From Bacillus sp. OxB-1 (GTDB taxonomy: Bacteria > Bacillota > Bacilli > Bacillales_A > Planococcaceae): a stretch of 64,000 nucleotides of DNA. This document shows, piece after piece, positions 23,887 through 25,706 of the stretch. Positions within the stretch are counted from its first letter, which is position 1; each line of letters starts with the position of its first letter. The translations under genes were made by a program, and so were the position numbers. Under the pieces are notes generated by a model. It ran no database searches. It was not told where the DNA came from and was given only the letters and a program-made list of their open reading frames with translations. Where the stretch lies: assembly GCF_000829195.1 (NCBI RefSeq), contig NZ_AP013294.1:2057001-2121000 (forward strand), given 5' to 3'.

Positions 23887-24547
23887 AATAGCACCTTCCA
23901 TTTTATCCGCAGATTTTTCAAAACTAGCCGAAGAAGTGAAAGAAGTGGAGGCGGCCGGTGCCGAACTGATCCACATTGATGTCATGGACGGCCATTTCGT
24001 TCCGAACATCACCATGGGTCCGATCGTTGTAGAAGCACTGCGTCCCGTGACGAAGCTACCGCTTGATGTGCATTTGATGATTGAAAATCCCGATGCGTAT
24101 ATTGAGGCTTTTGCCGATGCAGGCGCAGATTACATCACCGTCCATGTGGAGGCTTGTCGACATCTGCACCGCACCTTGCAATTGATCCGGTCGAAAGGGG
24201 TCAAATCGGGTGTCGTCCTTAATCCGCATACACCGGTCGAAACGATTTTGCATGTTCTCGATGAAGTGGATATGGTACTGTTCATGACGGTCAATCCGGG
24301 GTTCGGTGGCCAAAAGTTCATCCATTCCGTCATTCCGAAAGTGAAGCAACTGGCGGACATCATCAAGGAGCGGGAGCTGTCGATTGAGATTGAAATCGAT
24401 GGCGGGATCAATGAAGAAACGATCATCCCTTGTGTAGAGGCAGGAGCCACCATTTTTGTCGCCGGTTCCGCCATCTACAATGCGCCAGATCGGGCAGAAG
24501 CCTTGCAGAAGATCAAATCCGCTGGTGAAGGGGCGCTGATTAGATGA
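23879..24547 (+). CDS. rpe: Ribulose-phosphate 3-epimerase
   Basis: Rpe (222 aa) interconverts ribulose 5-phosphate and xylulose 5-phosphate in the pentose phosphate pathway. TIM-barrel motifs are intact: APSILSADF, HIDVMDGHFVPN, HLMIENPD, MTVNPGFGGQ and EIDGGINEET with the catalytic Asp. ATG23879 is preferred over ATG23870, because the GAGG site at 23865-23868 is 10 bases away from the former but only 1 from the latter. It overlaps rsgA by 8 bases and thiN by 4. Confidence 0.95.
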   Translation: MIKIAPSILSADFSKLAEEVKEVEAAGAELIHIDVMDGHFVPNITMGPIVVEALRPVTKLPLDVHLMIENPDAYIEAFADAGADYITVHVEACRHLHRTLQLIRSKGVKSGVVLNPHTPVETILHVLDEVDMVLFMTVNPGFGGQKFIHSVIPKVKQLADIIKERELSIEIEIDGGINEETIIPCVEAGATIFVAGSAIYNAPDRAEALQKIKSAGEGALIR

Positions 24548-25197
24548 AACTCGCAATAATCTGTGCCGGAGGACCGGAAGCCGATGTCTTGGATTTGAAG
24601 GTGTTCGCCGAAGAAGATGTCATGTACGTCGGAGCGGATCGCGGAGCGGTTCATCTGTTGAGCAGCGGAATTATCCCGGACGCGGCGATAGGGGATTTCG
24701 ATTCCGTGACGGATGCGGAATATAATCAAATATTGGAGTCGGTCAGTTATATTGAAAAAGCTGACTCCGAGAAGGATCAGACCGATACGGAGCTGGCGGT
24801 GCTGCATGCCCTTTCCTTTAAACCGGACCGTGTCATCTTGACAGGGGTGACGGGGGGAAGATTGGATCATATGGAAGCTGCCCTTCATCTCATGCATCGC
24901 TTGCAAGAAGAACATAAGCACATCAAATTCATGATATCCAATCAAACGAATGAAATATCCATCCTCCGGGCGGGCGTCCATCGGATAAACCGGGATGAAA
25001 GATATCCGTTCATCTCGTTCTTCTCCTTCGTCGGCCCAGTGAAAAAACTGACGCTGACCGGGTTCAAATACGAAACGGTCGATGCAACATTAGAAATCGG
25101 CACTACGAAATTCACGAGCAATGAAACCGCCTCAGAAGTTTGTACTATCTCTTTCCGGGAAGGCATATGCTTAATGGTAAGGAGTTCAGATTCCTGA
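24544..25197 (+). CDS. thiN: Thiamine diphosphokinase
   Basis: ThiN (YloS, 217 aa) transfers pyrophosphate from ATP to thiamine. The N-terminal catalytic domain shows GADRGA, IGDFDSV and the acidic EKDQTDTELA motif; the C-terminal beta-sandwich thiamine-binding domain covers about 135-215. Its start overlaps the rpe stop by ATGA. spoVM follows 13 bases downstream. Confidence 0.93.
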   Translation: MKLAIICAGGPEADVLDLKVFAEEDVMYVGADRGAVHLLSSGIIPDAAIGDFDSVTDAEYNQILESVSYIEKADSEKDQTDTELAVLHALSFKPDRVILTGVTGGRLDHMEAALHLMHRLQEEHKHIKFMISNQTNEISILRAGVHRINRDERYPFISFFSFVGPVKKLTLTGFKYETVDATLEIGTTKFTSNETASEVCTISFREGICLMVRSSDS

Positions 25198-25210
25198 AAG
25201 GGGTGGGGAT

Positions 25211-25351
25211 TTGCGAGTTTATACATTTACGCTGCCGAAATTCGTGAGTGGCTTTGTGAGGAAATGTATGGTCGCTTTCCAGAAAGACGAGAAACCGAAA
25301 GCGACCGCTGCGAAAAGCAAGAAGAGGAAGAAAGAAAAAGCGCAAGGCTGA
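25211..25351 (+). CDS. spoVM: Stage V sporulation protein SpoVM, C-terminally extended
   Basis: A 46-codon gene with a TTG start preceded by AAAGGGGTGGGG at 6 bases. Its first 26 residues align without gaps to B. subtilis SpoVM, the amphipathic peptide that recognises the convex forespore membrane and anchors SpoIVA to start coat assembly. Identical positions include Y4, T5, L8, P9, K10, F11, G14, V16, R17, F23, K25 and D26; Pro9 is the residue known to be needed for curvature sensing. The B. subtilis protein stops at residue 26. This one continues for 20 mostly charged residues rich in Lys (KSKKRKKEKAQG at the end). Position between thiN and rpmB is the same as in Bacillus. Confidence 0.88.
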   Translation: MRVYTFTLPKFVSGFVRKCMVAFQKDEKPKATAAKSKKRKKEKAQG

Positions 25352-25375
25352 CTCGACCCAGCCTTGCGTTTTTTT
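25341..25375 (+). terminator. Terminator overlapping the end of spoVM
   Basis: A perfect 10-bp stem CGCAAGGCTG / CAGCCTTGCG, with an 8-base loop and a run of seven T residues, follows the last sense codons. The TGA stop (25349-25351) lies at the top of the 5' arm, so the end of spoVM is read through the terminator stem. It ends the gmk-spoVM transcription unit. Confidence 0.93.
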
Positions 25376-25460
25376 CTAAGTCGGCTAGTTTGCGAGCGTC
25401 TGTTTTTACTTTAGGAAGCTGGAAATCGGATTTGTGCTTGTCTGGAGTGTTGAAGAACGG

Positions 25461-25640
25461 CTGATAGGTTGTCCCGAGTGCTGGTATCCCTGGAGAACGG
25501 CTGATATTTTGACGCAAGTGCCGATATCTTCGGGGAGCGGCTGATAAGTTGTCCTGAGTGCTGATATCTTCGAAGAACGGCTGATAAGATATCCCAAATG
25601 CTGACATCTGCAAGAAACCGCAGATAACTATTCCGCCCTT
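25461..25640. repeat. Tandem array of nine alternating 20-bp half-units
   Basis: Four and a half copies of a 40-bp unit in exact register (starting at 25461, 25501, 25541, 25581, 25621). Each 40-bp unit splits into two 20-bp halves that both begin CTGATA or a close variant. The A half is like CTGATAAGTTGTCCTGAGTG and the B half like CTGATATCTTCGAAGAACGG. The first and last copies are the most diverged. No unique spacers are present, so it is not a CRISPR array. Function unknown. Confidence 0.85.
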
Positions 25641-25659
25641 CACCCTAATCCACTACATG

Positions 25660-25706
25660 AAAAAAAGCTAATGACCCATCCTATATGGATCATTAGCTTT
25701 TTCTTC
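25660..25706 (-). terminator. Terminator of rpmB (bidirectional)
   Basis: AAAAAGCTAATGA and TCATTAGCTTTTT pair around a loop containing CCAT/ATGG. The minus-strand T run follows the stem about 45 bases below the rpmB stop. The A/T-symmetrical ends mean it could also stop plus-strand transcripts. Confidence 0.88.

Follow-up and report, generated by a model that had tools for sequence, protein, structure and literature searches.

At 26 residues, SpoVM is the textbook example of a curvature-sensing peptide; in Bacillus subtilis it is expressed in the mother cell under SigE and SpoIIID. In that species, its helix is embedded in the outer forespore membrane, a convex surface, where it anchors SpoIVA (PMC4396682; PMC5607322). 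Pro9 kinks this helix and is required for recognition of convex membrane, while Ile6 is needed for SpoIVA binding (PMC5607322). The protein has been described as under 30 amino acids long (PMC3533761), and a search of titles and abstracts for SpoVM with a C-terminal extension, Sporosarcina or Lysinibacillus, covering open-licence papers without their supplements, returned no description of a tail. Here, we describe a SpoVM that continues for 20 residues past the canonical peptide and whose last codons are shared with a transcription terminator.

The spoVM gene and its canonical head

The window, by which we mean the whole 64,000-nucleotide stretch of DNA that was analysed, carries on its forward strand an open reading frame at 25211–25351 that begins with TTG, ends with TGA and encodes 46 amino acids, translating as (M)RVYTFTLPKFVSGFVRKCMVAFQKD followed by EKPKATAAKSKKRKKEKAQG. 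The product matches the curated models NCBIfam NF033436 (SpoVM_broad; E 1.4e-11, 44.2 bits against a cut-off of 31) and Pfam PF08183 (SpoV; 32.7 bits against a cut-off of 20.6). As in B. subtilis, the gene sits after thiN and before rpmB in a genome that also encodes a SpoIVA partner (537 bits in host genome G000; cut-off 459.9). Upstream, the thiamine diphosphokinase gene thiN (24544–25197, forward strand; TIGR01378, 166.6 bits) ends 13 bases before the spoVM start; downstream, rpmB, for ribosomal protein L28 (25749–25937, reverse strand; TIGR00009), is convergent and has its own hairpin at 25662–25702. The host genome is a single contig of 3.59 Mb, the closest named loci for the region are those of Sporosarcina, and an orthologous reading frame is present in all 68 genomes of that genus. 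An RNA family search at the locus gave a lone match to a snoRNA model, far under its gathering score. The curated models, the thiN/rpmB synteny and the genus-wide conservation bear out the SpoVM identity proposed in a sequence-only reading of this DNA, and 25211–25351 is almost certainly a Sporosarcina spoVM whose tail is translated, the two statements being taken together.

Residues 1–26 (25211–25288) form the canonical head. The gapless alignment to the 26-residue B. subtilis peptide claimed in the same reading was recovered end to end against chain 2mvh, with Pro9 and Arg17 in place; Lys10, Tyr4 and Thr5 are likewise shared with the B. subtilis protein (PDB 2mvh, 2mvj), and Pro9 occurs in 68 of 68 Sporosarcina. 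The head departs from its B. subtilis counterpart in Ile6 to Phe, Lys7 to Thr and the presence of Cys19. Position 6 is Phe in all Planococcaceae examined, and Lys7, found in 72 of 72 SpoVMs outside the family, is Thr in all Sporosarcina. Cys19 (25265–25267) occurs in 66 of the 68 Sporosarcina proteins and in all other Planococcaceae examined, as well as in 5 of 72 SpoVMs elsewhere.

Unlike in B. subtilis, the start codon is not ATG. The TTG start at 25211, also part of the sequence-only reading, is supported by the codon at the same position across Sporosarcina, TTG in 62 and ATG in 6 of 68 genomes, and by a Shine-Dalgarno-like AAAGGGGTGG (25197–25206, forward strand) directly 5′ of it that is conserved within the genus. 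That such a gene is easily missed holds for de novo gene finders but not for the curated model NF033436, which detects it over cut-off. The start is apparently CTG in nine of ten genomes of genus g14 (L050–L054, L056, L139, L156, L157). Genome G154 has two identical spoVM reading frames 1.1 kb apart (L120:1601-1735 and L120:2713-2847), which stem from tandem duplication or else from an error of assembly.

Within the 3′ end of thiN, TACTATC and CATATGCT, 14 nt apart (25143–25171, forward strand), make up a tentative SigE-like putative promoter, judged by eye. The element is near-invariant in Sporosarcina, and its GGCATATG core is kept family-wide, synonymous sites too. More broadly, the last thiN codons (25143–25183; GGCATATGYTTAATGGTAAG) have near-invariant nucleotides, synonymous sites included, which suggests that spoVM is served by a promoter or some other signal there. 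Between spoVM and rpmB, positions 25455–25614 hold a tandem repeat of period 40 with GAACGGCTGATAAGTTGTCC-like units about 75% alike, and the repeat is matched at ten more places in the genome.

A polybasic tail and the terminator at its end

The C-terminal tail comprises residues 27–46 (25289–25348), nine of which are Lys or Arg (45%). Among 53 longer open reading frames in the window, the last 20 residues average 14% Lys or Arg with a maximum of 35%, so that the spoVM tail exceeds them all. It lies outside both curated models, NF033436 and PF08183, which span 26 and 25 positions, respectively. SpoVM is expected to be about 26 residues long, as against 46 in the window and 45–53 across the genus; since the curated models do not include length, the extra residues define a variant and are no bar to SpoVM membership. 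A congener whose protein stopped after residue 26 would have spoken against the extension, but there is none among the 68 Sporosarcina: every reading frame continues past that point. The tail there starts with acidic or polar residues, passes through a linker of variable length rich in Ala, Thr, Ser and Asn, and leads into a basic block (K.KKRKK) before ending in E/D-K-x-x-G/S. Its net charge ranges from +6 to +9 across Sporosarcina and is roughly +7 in the window, and hydrophobic residues are nearly absent. AlphaFold modelled the window SpoVM at low overall confidence, with a helix over residues 10–26 at moderate confidence and a weak helix drawn in the tail at a pLDDT of about 51; the tail is probably flexible or disordered.

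Also setting the window gene apart from B. subtilis spoVM, a terminator overlaps its coding end. This intrinsic terminator (25341–25375, forward strand) has a 5′ arm at 25341–25351, a 3′ arm at 25358–25368 and a T tract at 25369–25375, and the 5′ arm of its 11-pair stem consists of the last spoVM codons and the stop. The predicted RNA fold is −26 kcal/mol (z −6.4); being A-rich on its other side, the terminator may act on both strands. Stem and coding end overlap in 68 of 68 Sporosarcina, 8 of 8 genomes of g3, 3 of 3 of g5, 4 of 4 of g17 and 6 of 8 of g11, and also in 9 of 10 of g14, where the stem sequence is different. In g4, g13, g15, g18 and the Bacillaceae loci the stem lies 3′ of the stop, and what follows the g4 stop is a stem of the type that, in the long forms, encodes KMPG. 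Of eight other reading frames in the window that have a hairpin resembling a terminator, none showed such an overlap. A stop codon inside a terminator can function where transcription outruns translation. In B. subtilis, transcription-translation coupling is reported to be much rarer or absent and transcripts end unusually close to the upstream coding sequence (PMC12207403), while in E. coli a terminator that lies too close to the gene is itself repressed (PMC4824070).

This arrangement raises the prospect that the tail is a tolerated by-product: lysine codons would arise by chance from the A-rich sequence leading into the hairpin, and the resulting peptide would be inert. The last codons are terminator 5′ arm throughout Sporosarcina, and in locus L041 (g11) a nonsense change has removed the end of the tail while the stem persists; the stem is therefore maintained in its own right. 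Stem codons also show a pN/pS of 0.61, with a wide interval, so that RNA constraint explains the end of the tail. Upstream of the stem, however, selection acts at the level of protein. From 34 independent pairs, the head had a pN/pS of 0.08 and the tail, read in frame, one of 0.34, against 1.19 and 1.16 for the same tail DNA read in the two shifted frames; leaving out the stem codons, the in-frame value was 0.33 (bootstrap 0.25–0.44). The basic block KSKKRKK (residues 35–41; 25313–25333, forward strand) is the most constrained part of the tail, at 0.22 (bootstrap 0.15–0.33). Exchanges between Lys and Arg account for 4482 of 7271 pairwise amino-acid differences in the block, and CGN arginine codons, which break up the A tract, occur there in 42 of 68 genomes; charge is therefore kept, not A-richness alone. 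Changes in tail length, of which at least 17 are needed on a tree of Rpe and ThiN, are every one in frame. Given this balance, we consider an inert by-product unlikely. As an account of the whole tail, the terminator A tract alone fails for the codons 5′ of the stem, on frame-specific pN/pS and on codon choice. On these selection statistics, the tail is maintained as protein in Sporosarcina, and the lysine-rich extension of the earlier reading stands as 20 in-frame residues under purifying selection.

Tail length across Planococcaceae

Tails span 3–27 residues among the sporulating Planococcaceae sampled, a gradation that, like the terminator overlap, only comparison of many genomes could reveal. 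SpoVM measures 29–31 amino acids in g4, g13, g15, g18 and g19 and 32–35 in g10 and g14, rising to 34–40 in g11, 43–46 in g3 and 46–52 in g5 and g17. The short-tailed proteins (g4, g10, g13, g14, g15, g18, g19) share Phe6 and Cys19 with the window SpoVM and carry a Lys-rich stub of 3–9 residues, but they are without its long linker and KKRKK block; their hairpin is mostly 3′ of the stop, with g14 as the exception, whereas the window stem overlaps it. Outside the family, the 72 SpoVMs sampled from the class were all 25–27 amino acids long, 20 of them having been picked for a long-looking open frame; some weak-scoring families lay outside this set. The tail appears to be lineage-specific and, within this sampling, restricted to Planococcaceae.

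In the Rpe and ThiN tree, which has several weak nodes and a non-monophyletic Sporosarcina, long-tailed lineages are basal in Planococcaceae; on that topology, short tails would be secondary losses. Among tested genomes lacking a SpoVM match, seven also lacked a SpoIVA match and one (G086) had SpoIVA over cut-off. Another retained a broken spoIVA remnant (G068:C1:393099-393350), consistent with loss of sporulation.

Proposed role of the tail

We propose that the tail acts as an electrostatic anchor on anionic lipid and possibly on the SpoIVA shell, a role to which we give roughly even chances. The canonical helix would insert in the outer forespore membrane as it does in B. subtilis, leaving the polybasic tail on the membrane surface that faces the mother cell, where its charge of about +7 could clamp anionic phospholipid and possibly the acidic SpoIVA shell. 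A SpoVM-GFP fusion has served as the sole source of SpoVM in B. subtilis (PMC7769602), so additions to the peptide can be tolerated. Head charge is lower in genera with longer tails (Spearman −0.61, p 0.03, for 12 related genera with no phylogenetic correction), and the tail may compensate for charge lost from the helix. Its origin may lie in the overlap of reading frame and terminator, the A-rich hairpin lead having supplied lysines that were later kept and tuned.

An alternative would have the tail serve as an arm that docks a partner protein, SpoIVA being the likeliest. Across 23 Planococcaceae genomes with long and short tails (loci L234–L256, the host's own being L249), SpoIVA is 40–44% identical to that of Bacillus, compared with 78% for Paenibacillus, so the Planococcaceae copy has moved; the residue that contacts SpoIVA in B. 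subtilis, Ile6 (PMC5607322), is the one replaced by Phe in every Planococcaceae SpoVM examined; and SpoIVA is acidic overall, with a net charge of −15 to −28 in Planococcaceae. Yet the divergence of SpoIVA is equal in short- and long-tailed genera, its net charge does not go with tail length, and neither the linker nor the basic block keeps a fixed length or order, as a specific docking motif would be expected to. A docking arm is in our estimate improbable. An acidic SpoIVA patch co-evolving with tail length found no support. It is very unlikely that the tail binds nucleic acid or governs SpoVM turnover by FtsH or ClpXP: a flexible tail rich in Lys and Arg is compatible with either, and turnover may differ in that the B. 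subtilis checkpoint protein CmpA (NF033225) was over cut-off in 0 of 16 Planococcaceae genomes (G000 and 15 others) versus 3 of 3 Bacillaceae, but the tail has no hydrophobic degron-like end and we know of no nucleic-acid partner in the basement layer.

Against the anchor role, some relatives sporulate with just 3–5 extra SpoVM residues, so not every member of Planococcaceae requires a long tail. What is new, as judged from these comparisons, is a real, lineage-specific and selected extension of the well-studied SpoVM, with a terminator folded into its last codons. The gene clearly illustrates how coding sequence can lie within a terminator while the adjoining peptide is selected as protein. 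The graded cationic tails of the family are natural variants for probing the capacity of the bare helix, and they let one ask whether membrane binding or coat recruitment responds to charge beyond the helix.
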